Shown here in pieces: positions 5,268 to 27,167 of a DNA stretch of 32,575 bases; within the stretch, counting starts at the first letter, position 1; the number at the start of each line of letters is the position of its first letter. Position numbers and translations under genes: made by a program. The notes below the pieces were generated by a model that worked only from the letters and a program-made list of their open reading frames with translations, was not told the DNA's origin and did not search any database. This DNA comes from Candidatus Acidiferrales bacterium. GTDB taxonomy: Bacteria; Acidobacteriota; Terriglobia; Acidiferrales; UBA7541. The DNA lies in the NCBI GenBank assembly GCA_025451835.1, contig JANWJR010000063.1:1-32575 (forward strand), written 5' to 3'.

Positions 5268-8200
5268 ATGAAAACCCTGCGTAAAATTTCGCTTCGAGGG
5301 ACGCGGTTGCACCGGCGGGCTGCGAATGGGATGACGTCATGGATAGCCGCGTGTGTTGGAGGTGTCCTCCTAGTGGTGGCGCCCCTAGCCACCGCCCAGG
5401 AAGCGCCTGTTGAAGGGCGCCAGGTCGCCGAAATTCGGGTGGTAGATGATTCCGGAAAAGCGGTCCCGAGGATGCCATCGCTGGCCCTCCAAGCCGGACA
5501 TCCTTTCGATTATGCGAAAGAGCGCGAAAGCTTGCGGACGCTATACGCCAGCGGCGACTATGCGGACATTCGAGTGACGGCAGCGAACGAATCACGTGGC
5601 CTGCACGTGGAATTCGTGGTGCGCCGCAATTACTACAATAATGTGATTCGGATTGAGGGCCTCAAGCCGCCCCCAACCGAAGCTGCGGCCCTGGCGGCCA
5701 TGCGGCTCAGCCTCGGAGAGGCTTTTCGCGAAAGCGTTTTGCGCGAAGCAATCGGCCGCCTCGAAGATGCACTTCATGCCGATGGCTTCTACCAGGCTAA
5801 GGTCACTCGCTCCTTGATGCCGCATGAGGATACGCGGCAGATGGATATTATCGTGAAGGTTGATACGGGCCCGCGCGCGCGCGTTGGCAGCATCACGTTC
5901 AAGAATCAGACTCCTTACAAGGACAACGCGCTATTACGGCGTTCGAAACTCCGGGCCGGAAACGGCGTGACGTCAGCGCGCCTCTCCCGCGCATCGCAAC
6001 GGCTTAAAAAATATCTCGTGGACCAGGGGTATTTGGGGACGGGAGTCCTTATCGAAGCCGGCGCGTACGACGCACAGTCGAACATGGTGCCGCTGGCGTT
6101 TCAAGTAACGACCGGCCCCCGCGTCCGCGTCGAAGTCTCTGGCGCGCATCTCTCCAAAAGCCGTTTGCGCCGACTGCTGCCGATTTATCCGGAAGGAACG
6201 GTGGACGACGATCTCCTGCAGGAAGGCCGGCGAAACCTTCGCGCTTTTTTTCAGCGCGAAGGTTATTTCGATGCCGACGTCCAGGTGACTTCCCGGGGCG
6301 ATGCGGCGCGATCCGAACGCGTCATCAGCTATGAAGTTGCGCGCGGCGACCGCTTTCGGTTGTCTGGCGTGTCGTTCGCCGGCAACAAATACTTCAGTAC
6401 GAATTTGCTTAGTGGACGCCTGCAATTACAGCCCGCATCTTTCGCATCGAGAGGCCGTTTCAGCCAGCAACTCGTGCGAGCCGATGCAGATTCGATTCGC
6501 GGCCTCTATGAATCGAATGGTTTCCGCGCCGCGCAGGTTACCTCGGCCGTGCAGGACGACTACCTCGGCAAGAAAGACAACTTGTTCGTCTCGTTCGACA
6601 TCGTCGAAGGTCCGCAGACGCGGGTTGCGAGCCTTAAGCTGGAGGGAAATCGCACGATTAGCACCGATACGATTCTGGCGGTTGTAGGATCCTCGCCGGG
6701 CCAGCCGTATTCGGAAGCCGGCGTCGCAAGCGACCGCAACAATATCCTCGCTATGTATTACAACGAAGGATTTCCCGAAGCGCGTTTTCTGGAAGACGCC
6801 GTTCCCGGGGCCGCGCCGAACACGATCGACTTGACCTACCAAATCGCCGAAGGCGAGCGGATCGACGTGGCTAAAGTGCTGCTCACTGGCTACCAGTACA
6901 CGCGGCCGGGAATCATTGCACGACAAGTGCAGATCAAGCCGGGCGGTCCCATGCGCGAAGGCGATGTGGTGGAAACGCAGCGCCGCCTATACAACCTCGG
7001 TGTTTTCAATCGCGTGCAGATCGCGCCGCAGAATCCGAACGGCACAGACCCAGACAAAACGATGGTCGTAGATGTGACGGAAGGCAATCGGTATTCCGTC
7101 GGCTACGGCGTCGGGTTCGAAATTCAAAGGATTGCCGCTACCTGCAACAATCCCCCGCCAACTCAGCCGGCTCCGAAGCAGCCCTCCCCGCCATGCGATC
7201 CGAACGCCACTAAGCTGGCTTCCAGCCCGCGTGGAATTTTCGAGATTTCGCGCTCGAATATGTTCGGCCGAGCCCAAACCCTGTCATTCAAAGCCCGCGC
7301 GAGCACGCTCGAATACCGCTCCGTCTTGAGCTACACGGCCGACAATTTTCTCAACAATCGCAGCTTGAACCTGCAGCTCACCGGGTATGCGGAAAAGTCG
7401 CAGGACATCAACACGTTCACCTCGACGCGACTCGAAGGAGCGGTCCAACTCGTGGAGAGCCTAACGCCATCGAGTTCGTTGCTCTATCGCTACTTTTACC
7501 GCCGCGTCGAAGCTTCCAACATACGAGAAACGATCGATCCGGAAGAGATACCGTTGTTGAGCCAACCGACCCTCGTTTCCGGATTCGGCATCACGTATGC
7601 GCGCGACCGCCGCGACAATCCCGCCGACGCAAAACGTGGAACCTTCAACACGGTGGACCTTAGCGTAGCGGAGCGCCCTCTGGGTTCCGATTCGAGCTTT
7701 TTCCGCGGTGCGCTCCAGAACTCTTCCTTTTATCCCTTCGGACGCGATTTCGTTTTTGCGCGTTCCATACGATTTGGCGTCGAGCAAACGCTTGGCAATA
7801 CGGTGGAGCCGAATGATCCAAGCTGCATTACGCCTCCGGGTTCGACCAAGCCCAATTGCGTCACGATCCCTTTGCCCGAGCGATTCTTTGCCGGAGGAGG
7901 AACATCGATCCGCGGCTTCGGCTTAAATCAAGCGGGGCCTCGCGATCCGGTTACCGGGTTCCCCGTGGGAGGACTGGCGTTCGTAGGATTTAATCAGGAA
8001 CTGCGTTTCCCGACGCGATTCTCCATCGCCGGCAGCAGGCTCGGCGGGACGATTTTTTATGACGCTGGCAACGTATTTAGCGACGTCAGCCACATTTCGC
8101 TCGCGTGGAAGCCTCCATCGCCGACAAACTTGAACTATTTCTCGCATACGGTGGGAATCGGGGTGCGCTACCCCACGCCAGTCGGGCCGGTGCGCCTTGA

Positions 8201-8321
8201 CTTCGGATACCAGCTTAATCCCGCGCAATACCAGGTGGTGACGAACACGACGACCAACGCGACGGAATTGCTACGCCTGCCGCGCTTCCAATTCTTTTTC
8301 AATATCGGGCCGGTGTTCTAA
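5268..8321 (+). CDS. Omp85-family outer-membrane assembly protein (BamA/TamA type) with seven POTRA-like units
   Basis: 1017 residues, longer than typical BamA (about 800) or TamA (about 580). A hydrophobic segment at 24-43 acts as signal sequence. The periplasmic part contains seven POTRA-like units by my reading: about 52-120, 125-202, 205-285, 286-361, 362-449, 451-531 and 532-608. Each ends in a V..(G)P(R/Q)- or EG(E/N)R-like turn. The barrel (about 609-1017) has the IRGF lock motif at 881-884 within GGGTSIRGFG, YDAGNVF at 931, and a terminal phenylalanine. Two Cys-flanked proline-rich insertions (Cys626-Cys643 and Cys853-Cys864) may be disulfide-closed loops. The ATG at 5268 has only a weak GAG upstream. 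It lies directly before a SurA-like gene and tamB, which suggests TamA-like duty, but it may equally be the main BamA. Confidence 0.88.
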   Translation: MKTLRKISLRGTRLHRRAANGMTSWIAACVGGVLLVVAPLATAQEAPVEGRQVAEIRVVDDSGKAVPRMPSLALQAGHPFDYAKERESLRTLYASGDYADIRVTAANESRGLHVEFVVRRNYYNNVIRIEGLKPPPTEAAALAAMRLSLGEAFRESVLREAIGRLEDALHADGFYQAKVTRSLMPHEDTRQMDIIVKVDTGPRARVGSITFKNQTPYKDNALLRRSKLRAGNGVTSARLSRASQRLKKYLVDQGYLGTGVLIEAGAYDAQSNMVPLAFQVTTGPRVRVEVSGAHLSKSRLRRLLPIYPEGTVDDDLLQEGRRNLRAFFQREGYFDADVQVTSRGDAARSERVISYEVARGDRFRLSGVSFAGNKYFSTNLLSGRLQLQPASFASRGRFSQQLVRADADSIRGLYESNGFRAAQVTSAVQDDYLGKKDNLFVSFDIVEGPQTRVASLKLEGNRTISTDTILAVVGSSPGQPYSEAGVASDRNNILAMYYNEGFPEARFLEDAVPGAAPNTIDLTYQIAEGERIDVAKVLLTGYQYTRPGIIARQVQIKPGGPMREGDVVETQRRLYNLGVFNRVQIAPQNPNGTDPDKTMVVDVTEGNRYSVGYGVGFEIQRIAATCNNPPPTQPAPKQPSPPCDPNATKLASSPRGIFEISRSNMFGRAQTLSFKARASTLEYRSVLSYTADNFLNNRSLNLQLTGYAEKSQDINTFTSTRLEGAVQLVESLTPSSSLLYRYFYRRVEASNIRETIDPEEIPLLSQPTLVSGFGITYARDRRDNPADAKRGTFNTVDLSVAERPLGSDSSFFRGALQNSSFYPFGRDFVFARSIRFGVEQTLGNTVEPNDPSCITPPGSTKPNCVTIPLPERFFAGGGTSIRGFGLNQAGPRDPVTGFPVGGLAFVGFNQELRFPTRFSIAGSRLGGTIFYDAGNVFSDVSHISLAWKPPSPTNLNYFSHTVGIGVRYPTPVGPVRLDFGYQLNPAQYQVVTNTTTNATELLRLPRFQFFFNIGPVF

Positions 8322-9032
8322 ATGCGACGAACTCTTTGCGGCTTCGGTATCGCCCTGCTCTTAGCGACCGGTGGAGCAGTGTGCGCACGCGCACAGTCCG
8401 ATCCATTTTCGTCATTGCCAGGGCAAGCGGTTGCGGGCAACGGGTCAGCCAGGGCGCAGACTGTGGATGGTATTGCGGCGCGAATTGAAGACGATATCAT
8501 CACGGAGAGCGAAATTCGCGAGCTAGGCGCTTTTCAACAGCTTGTTGACGGTAAATCGAAAACGCGCGCCGAACTGATCAACGAGCTAGCCGACCAATGG
8601 ATCGTTCACGGTGAGGCCGCTGCTGCGAAGTTTCCGGAGCCGTCAGCCACGGATCTCGATCGCGCCTACGCGGAATTAGTGAAGCAGTTTCGATCGCCCG
8701 ACGAGCTTCAAAAACGCTGCGTGGAGGCAGATCTGACCGATGAAGCGGTGCACCGGCTGCTGAAACAGCAGCTATTCCTCTCGCATTTCATCGACTACCG
8801 CTTCCGTCCGGCGGCGCAAGTGAATGACGAGCAGATACAGGCGTACTACCGCGACGAATTCGCGCCACAGCTTAAAGCCCGTGGCCAGGCGGTCCCTCCG
8901 GTCGAGGACGTGGAAGACACGATTCGTGAGGTCCTGATTCAGAGAGCGATCACCGATCGCGCCACCAAATGGCTTGATGACACACGTCAACGCCTAAGGA
9001 TAGACGTCGTATCACCCGGGAGCACGCCGTGA
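8322..9032 (+). CDS. SurA N-domain-like periplasmic chaperone without a PPIase domain
   Basis: 236 residues starting immediately after the Omp85 stop. It has a signal peptide (1-24, ending ARAQ) and then the SurA_N-like signature VDGIAARIEDDIITESEI (48-65). A helical region with EL..ELADQWIVH.EA follows, then a C-terminal helix (VEDTIREVLIQRAITDRATKWLDDTRQRLRI, about 192-226) that in SurA packs back on the N-domain. There is no parvulin domain in between, so it should hold unfolded outer-membrane proteins without prolyl isomerase activity. Its GTGA overlap with tamB (9029-9032) implies coupled translation. The position between Omp85 and TamB supports a role in delivering barrel substrates to this machinery. 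Confidence 0.75.
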   Translation: MRRTLCGFGIALLLATGGAVCARAQSDPFSSLPGQAVAGNGSARAQTVDGIAARIEDDIITESEIRELGAFQQLVDGKSKTRAELINELADQWIVHGEAAAAKFPEPSATDLDRAYAELVKQFRSPDELQKRCVEADLTDEAVHRLLKQQLFLSHFIDYRFRPAAQVNDEQIQAYYRDEFAPQLKARGQAVPPVEDVEDTIREVLIQRAITDRATKWLDDTRQRLRIDVVSPGSTP

Positions 9033-23197: not shown

Positions 23198-23998
23198 GTG
23201 AGCTGTGGTCGTCGAAATCTATCCCCGATTCTTGCGGTTCTTATTGCCGTTCTTTGTTGGGCGCCTGGCAGCTCCTCCCAGGAGCATTCGTCGCAGGCGT
23301 CGCACTGGAGCTATTCCGGCGTCACAGGCCCGGAGCATTGGGGCGATCTCGACCCGGCTTTCGCAGCCTGTAAGAGTGGAACACGGCAATCGCCCATAGA
23401 CATCGCCGGTGCACACGAGTCCGATCTGCTGGCTATCCACTTCGATTACAAACTATCTCCACTTAGCATTGTCAACAACGGGCATACCATTCAGGTGAAT
23501 TACGAACGCGGGAGCACGATCTCGATTGCCGGGAAGCAGTACGCACTGGTTCAGTTTCATTTCCATCATCCGAGCGAGGAGCAAATTGCCGGCAAGCGCT
23601 TCGATTTGGTGGCGCACCTGGTTCACCAGGATTCGCAAGGGCATTACCTCGTGATCGCCGTGCTGTTCAAGAGCGGTAGCGTGAACCCGTTCATTCGCGT
23701 TCTGTGGACGAACTTGCCCAAGGAAACCGGGAAAGAGGTCATTGTGAAAAAAGTCGTGCTCAACGCGGAGGATATGCTGCCCGGCGACCGGAATTACTAC
23801 ATGTTTGAAGGCTCACTCACTACTCCTCCCTGCAACGAAGGAGTTAGCTGGTACGTTCTGAAAACGCCAATCGAGATTTCGCCCGAGCAAATCGCCGTGT
23901 TCGCTAAAATGTTCCCGAACAACGCTCGCCCGATTCAACCTGCAAATAACAGGGAAATCCTCGAGAGCCATTTTCCACCAACTGCAAAAACGAAGTAG
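23198..23998 (+). CDS. Exported alpha-type carbonic anhydrase
   Basis: 266 residues; interconverts CO2 and bicarbonate in the periplasm. Signal peptide at 1-28, then HWSYSG..GPEHWGDLDP and QSPIDI, typical of the alpha class. Zinc ligands are His121 and His123 (QFHFHHPSEE) and His140 (VAHLVH). His96 in NNGHT matches the proton-shuttle position, Glu127 the gatekeeper glutamate, and SLTTPPC carries the threonine that orients the zinc-bound hydroxide. Cys58 and the Cys of TTPPC can form the usual disulfide. The glutamate next to the third ligand in human CA II is Val138 here. The GTG at 23198 follows an excellent GGAGGTGAT ribosome site. Start and motifs make this a secure call. Confidence 0.93.
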   Translation: MSCGRRNLSPILAVLIAVLCWAPGSSSQEHSSQASHWSYSGVTGPEHWGDLDPAFAACKSGTRQSPIDIAGAHESDLLAIHFDYKLSPLSIVNNGHTIQVNYERGSTISIAGKQYALVQFHFHHPSEEQIAGKRFDLVAHLVHQDSQGHYLVIAVLFKSGSVNPFIRVLWTNLPKETGKEVIVKKVVLNAEDMLPGDRNYYMFEGSLTTPPCNEGVSWYVLKTPIEISPEQIAVFAKMFPNNARPIQPANNREILESHFPPTAKTK

Positions 23999-25422: not shown

Positions 25423-25497
25423 TGGTGCCGGCGGGGGGAATCGAACCCACGGCCTAGGGATTATGAGACCCTCGCTCTACCACTGAGCTACGCCGGC
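25423..25497 (-). tRNA. tRNA with CAU anticodon (elongator tRNA-Met or tRNA-Ile2)
   Basis: The minus strand folds as a tRNA. The acceptor stem GCCGGCG pairs with CGCCGGC, followed by A and an encoded CCA (25425-25423). The D arm is GCTCAGTGGTAGAGC, the anticodon loop CTCATAA gives CAU, and the T arm GTGGGTTCGATTCCCCC has the invariant TTCGA core. The first base pair is a normal G-C and there is no run of three G-C pairs next to the loop, so it is not initiator tRNA-Met. The anticodon stem has a T-T at the innermost pair. Met versus lysidine-modified Ile cannot be decided by eye. Confidence 0.93.
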
Positions 25498-25543: not shown

Positions 25544-25825
25544 GAAGCACCGCTGATCTTGGCGGTGATTAGATACAGCTTAACAAAACGGCACCACGAC
25601 GCCGCGAGTATCGCACGTTCCAGCCGCCCACGCCGAGTAGTACCTTAGTAACATTGACCGCATCCAGCCCAACCGATAACTTCACGAAGACAATTCGAAA
25701 GGTCCGGCCTTAGCCGGGGATGTGAGGGTGTGTACGCTTTAAGCACATGCCTTTCATATTTTCCCCTTGACGGCATTAGACCGCTTATACACTCCGCCGC
25801 GTAGGTTTCCCTACTCGGAGGGGTT
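25544..25825. other. Intergenic region upstream of the repeat-peptide gene
   Basis: Between the tRNA promoter and the small peptide gene. It contains a six-base-pair hairpin, CACCGC-N8-GCGGTG (25548-25567), with no T tract. A possible promoter for the peptide gene follows: TTGACG at 25767-25772 with TACACT at 25788-25793 (15-base spacer). A short hairpin, GTAGG-TTTC-CCTAC (25801-25814), sits directly before the ribosome site. No protein-coding frame looks real. Confidence 0.4.
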
Positions 25826-25996
25826 ATGAATAAGTGGCTGATAGTGGTGGTTTTGGCTCTGTTGGCGCTGACCAGCGCGATGACTCTCAAGGCTCTAACA
25901 GGTCATCGGATATTGGCAGTTACGACGGTGCCCGTACCTCCCTCGCCGTGGCTGGTAGCCGTAACAACGGTTCCCGTGCCTCCATCGCCCTGGTAG
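25826..25996 (+). CDS. 56-aa exported or membrane peptide with tandem C-terminal repeats
   Basis: A short gene, ATG 25826 to TAG 25994-25996, with a strong GGAGG five bases upstream of the ATG. The protein begins MNKWLIVVVLALLALTSAM, a signal peptide or single membrane helix. After LKALTGHRIL come two copies of AVTTVPVPPSPW, at residues 31-42 and 45-56, separated by Leu-Val; the second copy ends the protein. The two 36-base DNA units (25916-25951 and 25958-25993) differ in seven of twelve codons and every difference is a synonymous third-base change. Selection on the peptide sequence is the simplest explanation and proves the frame. Function is unknown. The nearest downstream gene encodes a seven-TM protein. 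Confidence 0.8.
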   Translation: MNKWLIVVVLALLALTSAMTLKALTGHRILAVTTVPVPPSPWLVAVTTVPVPPSPW

Positions 25997-26058: not shown

Positions 26059-26760
26059 ATGCTTGGCCCATTCGATTATGCGTTGTGGCTAGTCGGTTTC
26101 CTCGTGGAAATCTACGTAGTTGTGTGGTCGCTTTACCAAAACGAATTTTTTCGCTACCTCCCGCTTAATATCTACATGCTTTGTGAGGCCTTGGTTACAT
26201 TTGGCATGTATTTTTGTCTTAGGACATATGGCTTCAGTTCTCGGAAGTTCTTTTATTTCTACTACTATACCGATAGCTTACTGGCGATTTTGATGTTCTG
26301 CGTAATTATCAAGCTTTATTTGCAGGTCTTCCAAGAACTCGGAGTGAACGCCTACATCCGCCGGGCTGCGGGTGTCCTGATCCTCTTGACCGCTATATTT
26401 TCTTATGGGGTCATCCATCAGAATCAAGATCACTTGACCAGCCGATTCGTCGTCGAGCTCGAGCAGAACCTCAACTTCGTGGGAGTGGTGTTGACGTATC
26501 TTCTGTGGGGCGCAATTATGAAGCTTCGCGAGACGCGCACGCGGCTCATTCAACTTGTATTGGCTCTTGGCATCTATTTCAGCGCGACCGCCGGAATGTA
26601 CGCGCTCCGAAACCTCTTCCCGCATCTCGAATCGTCATTCCTGAAATCTGTGCTCCCGTTGGTTGGTCTGTGGCTTCCCTTGGCCTGGGCGTACACGTTC
26701 ACTAAAGTTCCCGAAGATTCGCGCCTGGCAACGGCGCTTGTGGCGGCGAGGGCTCGATGA
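26059..26760 (+). CDS. Seven-transmembrane protein of unknown function
   Basis: 233 residues, unrecognised. Seven hydrophobic segments lie at about 5-25, 34-54, 66-90, 102-120, 137-155, 162-184 and 196-216, followed by a short charged tail. Little extramembrane sequence exists: loops such as YGFSSRKFFYFYYY and HQNQDHLTSRFVVELEQN. There is no catalytic motif I can name. No Shine-Dalgarno precedes ATG 26059; the bases just upstream are CTTATA. Translation may depend on the upstream peptide gene 62 bases away or on another mechanism. The TGA overlaps the next ATG (ATGA), so the two proteins are probably made together. The topology would suit a receptor or a transporter-like sensor, but this is speculative. 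Confidence 0.75.
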   Translation: MLGPFDYALWLVGFLVEIYVVVWSLYQNEFFRYLPLNIYMLCEALVTFGMYFCLRTYGFSSRKFFYFYYYTDSLLAILMFCVIIKLYLQVFQELGVNAYIRRAAGVLILLTAIFSYGVIHQNQDHLTSRFVVELEQNLNFVGVVLTYLLWGAIMKLRETRTRLIQLVLALGIYFSATAGMYALRNLFPHLESSFLKSVLPLVGLWLPLAWAYTFTKVPEDSRLATALVAARAR

Positions 26761-27167
26761 TTGCAGCCCTTATCTGCGTGATTTCGGCGGCTGCCTGCTT
26801 GCAGTTCTTCGTCTCCTATTGCCGCTCGATTCTGGCTTCGAGCCGCAAGGCCGAATTGTCAGAGCGGGTTCGCGAGGTAACGGGTATTGTAGGCCCCGAA
26901 GTTGCGGCCGGTGATTTCCAGCGTTTGCTGCAACTCGTCCGACTGTGCCCGGAGCGCGGCGATGATCGGACAGAAATCCGGGCCGTTGGAACCTACTACA
27001 CGCTTCTTCGCGGGATCATTCTGATTTCCCGCTCAGCGATGCCGAAACTTTCCGCCTGGGCGGAAAGCGAACGCCAGAGCTGCTCGTATTTTGCGGCGGT
27101 TGTGCTGGATCGCCGGATCTCCTACAGCCGCGACCTTCTGATGCAGCAAGCAGCCGATCGTTTCTGA
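26757..27167 (+). CDS. Membrane-anchored hypothetical protein, translationally coupled to the seven-TM gene
   Basis: 136 residues, unrecognised. One N-terminal transmembrane helix (IAALICVISAAACLQFFVSYC) is followed by about 110 mostly charged, predicted helical residues: SSRKAELSERVREVTGIVG, EVAAGDFQRLLQLVRLCPERGDD, TYYTLLRGIILISRSAMPKLSAWAESERQSCSYFAAVVLDRRISYSRDLLMQQ. No domain is recognised; the pattern suggests an all-helical cytoplasmic domain. It starts inside the stop codon of the seven-TM gene (ATGA). The pair is very likely functionally linked. Confidence 0.75.
   Translation: MIAALICVISAAACLQFFVSYCRSILASSRKAELSERVREVTGIVGPEVAAGDFQRLLQLVRLCPERGDDRTEIRAVGTYYTLLRGIILISRSAMPKLSAWAESERQSCSYFAAVVLDRRISYSRDLLMQQAADRF

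Follow-up and report, generated by a model that had tools for sequence, protein, structure and literature searches.

The locus examined here raises the question of whether an open reading frame of only 56 amino acids, ending in two copies of the same peptide, is a genuine gene and, if so, what its product might do. The frame lies in a 32,575-nucleotide stretch of DNA from a Candidatus Acidiferrales bacterium (hereafter the window, meaning the whole stretch analysed) and translates as MNKWLIVVVLALLALTSAMTLKALTGHRILAVTTVPVPPSPWLVAVTTVPVPPSPW, followed by a stop codon. Its parts and its neighbors are collected in Table 1.

Table 1. Features of the locus, with positions numbered along the window.
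Feature	Position	Strand	Basis or remark
alpha-type carbonic anhydrase (PF00194, E 2.3e-42)	23198-23998		
tRNA-Met(CAU)	25423-25497	-	upstream of operon
promoter-like element TTGACG-15-TACACT	25767..25793	+	read from sequence; tentative
strong Shine-Dalgarno GGAGGGG, ahead of the ATG	25817..25823	+	sequence; GGAGG-type sites ahead of start in most orthologs
56-aa repeat-peptide precursor gene	25826..25996	+	sequence, translation, family profile
signal-sequence-like N-terminus, residues 1-31, end ...HRILA	25826..25918	+	conserved family-wide; putative cleavage
copy 1, AVTTVPVPPSPW	25916..25951	+	sequence, codon comparison
copy 2, AVTTVPVPPSPW, LV linker ahead of it	25958..25993	+	sequence, codon comparison
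seven-helix (7TM) membrane protein, 233 aa, proposed cognate receptor	26059..26760	+	conserved next gene; AF2 model; fold comparison
third gene: 136-aa protein, one N-terminal TM helix and helical domain	26757..27167	+	synteny, model

A family of repeat-bearing precursors

The earlier note on this DNA had claimed that the two C-terminal copies are identical in amino acids and differ synonymously at seven of twelve codons, and the codon comparison agrees exactly: every change is a third-base, synonymous one (copy 1, gca gtt acg acg gtg ccc gta cct ccc tcg ccg tgg; copy 2, gcc gta aca acg gtt ccc gtg cct cca tcg ccc tgg), and 7 of the 11 four-fold codons are affected. As some 31% of random single changes are synonymous, seven out of seven has a probability of about 2.5e-4, a figure that presumes random placement and a block delimited by its own identity. 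Judged from sequence comparison, the evidence for coding from other genomes is much stronger than this figure, as homologs that keep this N-terminus and carry another repeat, itself identical between copies, are present in most genomes of the window's family; the earlier proposal of a coding gene is thereby borne out. Chance repetition or slippage as the origin of the copies is ruled out by the synonymous pattern together with the orthologs.

A protein query with the 56-aa precursor recovered homologs in relatives (own match E 1.1e-29, next 1.8e-15), and most of the named ones come from Acidobacteriota (MAGs of the Acidoferrales/'gp2' type), the phylum in which the earlier note had expected them. 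A precursor profile built from 16 members matched 71 of the 89 genomes of the window's family (E <= 0.1). The family precursors share an N-terminus like MNKWxxVVVLxLLxLTSAxGL, which is followed by a lineage-private repeat, usually in 2-8 copies and in a few members in a single copy. Such private units include ANTGSPMPPTPW x4, ANTGGPMPPTPW x3, NTSGPVPPSPW x4, NTPGPMPPSPW x3, ANSGAPVPPTPW x3, GGGAPMPITPW x3-4, ASTTNPVPVMPD x2, NTSSPVPVTPW x4, NGGAPAPPVPWK x3, NGGAPQPPTPWK x3 and IGPGTPP x8, among others. The combination of a signal-like N-terminus with several near-identical copies of one peptide, by which multi-copy pheromone precursors are recognized, is therefore found here, and the best reading of these sequences is a precursor that would release several copies of a short peptide.

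The residue immediately ahead of the first copy is Ala in 41 of 43 family precursors, and ahead of later copies it is K, A or R in 73 of 86 cases; units starting with Ala were trimmed before counting, favoring Ala for those units. Linkers are short or absent in many family precursors, and no common protease motif between copies was found across the precursors compared.

Upstream of the gene, a TTGACA-16-TAGxxT element stands about 60 nt ahead of the start codon in nearly all orthologs of genus g5. The promoter-like element in the window itself is considered tentative, because its spacer is short and it was missed by the consensus scan. The intergenic stem-loop is unremarkable (z -1.66), and the tRNA is the only Rfam match above cut-off.

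Several irregular members were also observed. The repeats NGGGPIPPR stand in a frame other than that of the signal sequence in L107/L130 (G110), in L091/L128 (G031) the 7TM gene is separated from the intact precursor by a second peptide gene, which is degenerate (NGRGPVPPSSCGRAG), and in L109/L111 (G103) the precursor gene is apparently split within its repeat array over two contig ends. Several other precursors lie near contig ends, and the repeats may break short-read assemblies and hide members.

Evolution of the repeat copies

Across the multi-copy precursors of the family, amino acid-identical copies differ in 590 of 1240 comparisons of four-fold codons (0.476), the expectation under random use of the observed codons being 0.68. 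The selection on the peptide that had been proposed from the window's two copies is accordingly upheld: within each gene the copies share one amino acid sequence, and their synonymous sites have diverged strongly.

Genus g5 allows the copies to be followed between species. Copies at the same position share synonymous codons between species more than permuted positions do, and this held for the 62 species pairs with differing repeat amino acids (0.461 vs. 0.423, permutation p 0.0008; dereplicated p 0.0055) in a sample of 12 three-copy genes. Within-gene codon identity of the copies is 0.424, about the permuted baseline, and where the repeat amino acids have changed, the change is present in all copies. 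Because same-position synonymous codons are shared and within-gene codon identity is only at baseline, the g5 copies appear to be old and positionally orthologous; for the same reasons, the matching of their amino acids seems to reflect selection instead of DNA homogenization. Gene conversion as the sole cause of copy identity is unsupported in g5, given the baseline within-gene identity and the persisting positional orthology, and short conversion tracts or position-specific codon selection are possible. The simplest reading seems to be that selection keeps the copies alike in amino acids. Whatever their function, the repeats provide a clean natural case of copies with identical amino acid sequence, apparently through selection, and positionally orthologous synonymous sites.

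The peptide gene is paired with a 7TM protein gene

A homolog of the 233-aa 7TM gene is the next gene on the same strand in 55 fetched peptide loci from 53 genomes, and homologs of this protein extend across the class Terriglobia and beyond it to further classes of the phylum. When one fixed criterion was applied to 7TM genes and control genes alike, 86 of 149 7TM genes had an upstream, repeat-bearing, signal-like short ORF vs. 15 of 852 other genes; the Fisher p of 8e-67 overstates the evidence, as related loci are not independent, and the contrast itself does not depend on p. The association was also seen at loci fetched by the 7TM protein and not by the peptide, where an ORF of this kind precedes the gene in 43 of 96 cases. 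Among the other 7TM genes, many are preceded by a single-copy short ORF of the secreted type. The earlier note included neither this conserved adjoining gene nor its class-wide pairing.

The 7TM-fetched loci carry unrelated, internally identical units, namely HGGAPIPPIPF x3, TAPEMRDGTT-type x3, AAGPWPFPDDSAGGNI x3, IGSAPAPMPPHATMAL-type x5, IGGTPPPRPMVVG-type x3, AIGPSPAPIPPR x3, NMPVFPTPPAVKTA-type x5, SGTGLPIPGSG x6, LDGTQPPLPPTKHLA-type x4-5, SPMVVPPNPFPQPQPKGNSSKVAF-type x8 and AMSPASPHPVPPPAL-type x7. In total, 81 distinct repeat units were collected over all loci, 78 of them containing PP or PxP, and in the class f6 precursors the repeats begin directly after the signal-like segment. Divergent 7TM paralogs that accompany unrelated repeats fall within this 7TM family as well (hhalign 99.2%).

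The distance between repeats is correlated with that between 7TM proteins when the neighboring gene is controlled for (partial r 0.29, p 0.0005), in a partial Mantel test, a type prone to false positives, and with clade structure contributing; the signal resides in helices H1-H4, and none was found in H5c, loop 5 or H6c. Co-divergence of repeat and 7TM may thus be proposed with weak, clade-sensitive support. As a separate observation, the 7TM frame is interrupted in L103 (G068) and L230 (G205).

The AF2 model of the 7TM protein, computed with 59 homologs, contains seven helices (pLDDT 84, pTM 0.80). Lys and Arg are concentrated in loops 1 and 5 and at the C-terminus, and therefore an N-out/C-in topology is predicted. 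The best PDB matches found by VIA-align are 7TM receptors or GPCR-like designs, the best with Z 17.5 at 3.5 A over 213 residues; among the matches listed, Z was 14.7-17.5 at about 3.4-4.1 A over about 200-220 residues, with one row at 5.3 A. Foldseek matches to GPCRs were weak (E 0.014 at best), and the mere arrangement of seven helices in a bundle can produce a match. The model supports a GPCR-like arrangement and not homology. In sequence, neither the Pfam families nor the PDB matches of the protein included a GPCR. A relation to HisKA_7TM (PF16927) was rejected, as hhalign gave probabilities of 0.1-0.5% when HisKA_7TM proteins of genomes related to the window's own were compared.

The 7TM protein is best conserved in H5, H6 and cytoplasmic loop 5 (LRETR) and poorly so in loops 3 and 4 and the outer half of H7; the conserved polar or charged residues are E133, Q136, R157, E158 and R160. 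At its outer end, H3 carries an aromatic stretch (YFYYY) that would be apt for a polyproline ligand. The protein has no fused output domain or kinase, and no kinase or regulator adjoining its gene was identified.

A homolog of the third gene is usually the next after the 7TM gene in the window's family. This gene is confined to that family and one same-order relative, placing it outside the class-wide core, and conserves CP and W...E...C.Y.AA..L..R. Neither it nor the 7TM gene has a family in Pfam or NCBIfam, and its structure model had no meaningful PDB match. A comparison of the locus with the PADLOC anti-phage defence models yielded no family, the sole match being to the third gene at E 0.056.

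Proposed function of the pair and comparison with known systems

We narrowly lean towards a reading in which the pair comprises a multi-copy secreted peptide ligand and its cognate 7TM receptor, forming a species-specific, pheromone-like channel. The two genes would be co-transcribed and the pre-pro-peptide exported through Sec, cut after the Ala preceding the first copy and, at the junctions of later copies, after Ala or Lys/Arg; each precursor would thus yield a single short, Pro-rich peptide in several molecules (in the window about 11-12 residues, (A)VTTVPVPPSPW). The peptide would then bind at the outer face of the cytoplasmic membrane to the 7TM protein of the next gene downstream; the variable outer parts of this protein may set specificity, and its conserved cytoplasmic face may relay the signal to an output. 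Points against this multi-copy ligand model are the many pairs with a single peptide copy, the lack of a common protease motif between copies, and the lack of an output domain in the 7TM protein and of an identified kinase or regulator beside its gene. The broader proposal, in which Acidobacteriota would use a large set of multi-copy secreted peptides, each served by its own adjoining 7TM receptor with a GPCR-like fold, is more tentative, and we rate it as somewhat short of probable.

The pairing and co-divergence data would also fit if the precursor were never cut and stayed anchored or intact in the periplasm, where its multivalent Pro-rich tail would engage the 7TM protein, either as a subunit or as a tethered ligand. 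The short or absent linkers of many members and the lack of an identified dedicated protease gene nearby are in keeping with such a tail, whereas the Ala-ending site ahead of the first copy, the start of the f6 repeats directly after the signal-like segment and the free variation of copy number from 2 to 8 are less readily reconciled with it, and we regard it as fairly unlikely. Strict pairing would also be expected if the 7TM protein were a maturation, export or uptake factor for a peptide whose receptor and target lie elsewhere, a role that its conserved polar and charged residues and its lack of an output domain would suit. However, 7TM divergence tracks the repeat in H1-H4, conservation peaks on the side of cytoplasmic loop 5, and the predicted fold is nearest to 7TM receptor arrangements and not to a known protease, making this role a distinctly unlikely one.

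Less likely than either are a bacteriocin with its immunity protein and a regulatory arrest peptide. A short peptide of the secreted type that diverges fast beside a membrane protein recalls the former, but the operon is syntenic and near-ubiquitous in the family, unlike bacteriocin loci with their patchy distribution, the searches matched no bacteriocin family, and the peptide lacks a cationic or amphipathic character; a bacteriocin-like peptide with a 7TM immunity protein is thus improbable. A SecM-like stall at the Pro-rich C-terminus, controlling the downstream 7TM gene, is suggested by the signal sequence, the Pro-rich end and the place upstream of a membrane-protein gene, in all of which the ORF resembles SecM/MifM/VemP and the RAPP peptides (PMC7897499, PMC10987492, PMC10951233). 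For such a stall one site suffices, leaving the identical copies and the lineage-wide change of all copies unexplained; RAPP or RGPP occurs in 0 of 81 units, although a novel stall motif is possible, and the downstream gene is no translocation component. We therefore consider arrest highly improbable. The differences from these known ORFs lie in the multiple identical copies, the lack of a known arrest motif and the absence of a translocon gene downstream.

Acidobacteriota are among the most abundant soil bacteria and are hard to culture. To our knowledge, no peptide-based cell-cell signaling system is known in this phylum, and none was found in the literature searched. Nor did the libraries searched contain a family, a PDB relative or a paper describing the peptide-7TM pair, preprints and most subscription papers lying outside the scope of the search. 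What lacks a described counterpart there is the gene pair and the 7TM family; multi-copy peptide precursors as such are a known principle. In fungi, the alpha-factor of S. cerevisiae and the P-factor of S. pombe are released from secreted multi-copy precursors and sensed by the GPCRs Ste2 and Mam2. The S. pombe P-factor precursor (map2) carries 4-8 tandem peptide copies (PMC6342294). The likeness lies in a tandem-copy precursor of the secreted type and a 7TM protein with which the peptide diverges, the receptor role being a proposed one in Acidobacteriota. In contrast to the fungal systems, the Acidobacteriota pair is bacterial and its genes are adjacent, with no sequence relation found; there is no consistent KR-type spacer between copies, no G protein is known, and the copies are mostly identical, whereas S. 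pombe strains mix variants.

Among bacteria, the RRNPPA systems of Bacillota (Rap-Phr, PlcR-PapR, NprR-NprX, AimR) place a small, Sec-exported propeptide beside its receptor gene, an adjacency seen here with the gene of the proposed receptor, and RRNPPA propeptides may contain as many as six copies of the mature pheromone (PMC9765709). Sec export of the present precursors is suggested by their N-terminus, and internal repeats, rare in RRNPPA, are common in them. RRNPPA receptors are cytoplasmic TPR proteins of Gram-positives, whereas the neighbor here is a seven-helix membrane protein with no Pfam match. HisKA_7TM modules are also bacterial 7TM sensory modules of about 220 aa, differing from the Acidobacteriota protein, to which no kinase is fused.

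If the ligand-receptor reading is true, the pairs would represent a bacterial counterpart of yeast pheromone/GPCR logic, in which some genomes would carry several orthogonal channels and ligand specificity would change between species. Dozens of peptides, each with its own 7TM protein, would offer an immediate list of testable ligand-receptor pairs, and the family would raise the question of whether GPCR-like peptide receptors exist in bacteria. More than one such channel may be present per genome: the window's own genome contains a second, divergent pair, in which a precursor with AEGIGAPSPPGPY x2 is followed by a 7TM paralog (L299, G000:C104, about 7,380-8,491).

At another locus (L330, G189:C18), a divergent 7TM gene is preceded by two small precursor genes, tandem paralogs that both end in AMPVPSCAPDGQNSCGL, and copy number is raised there via gene duplication instead of internal repeats.
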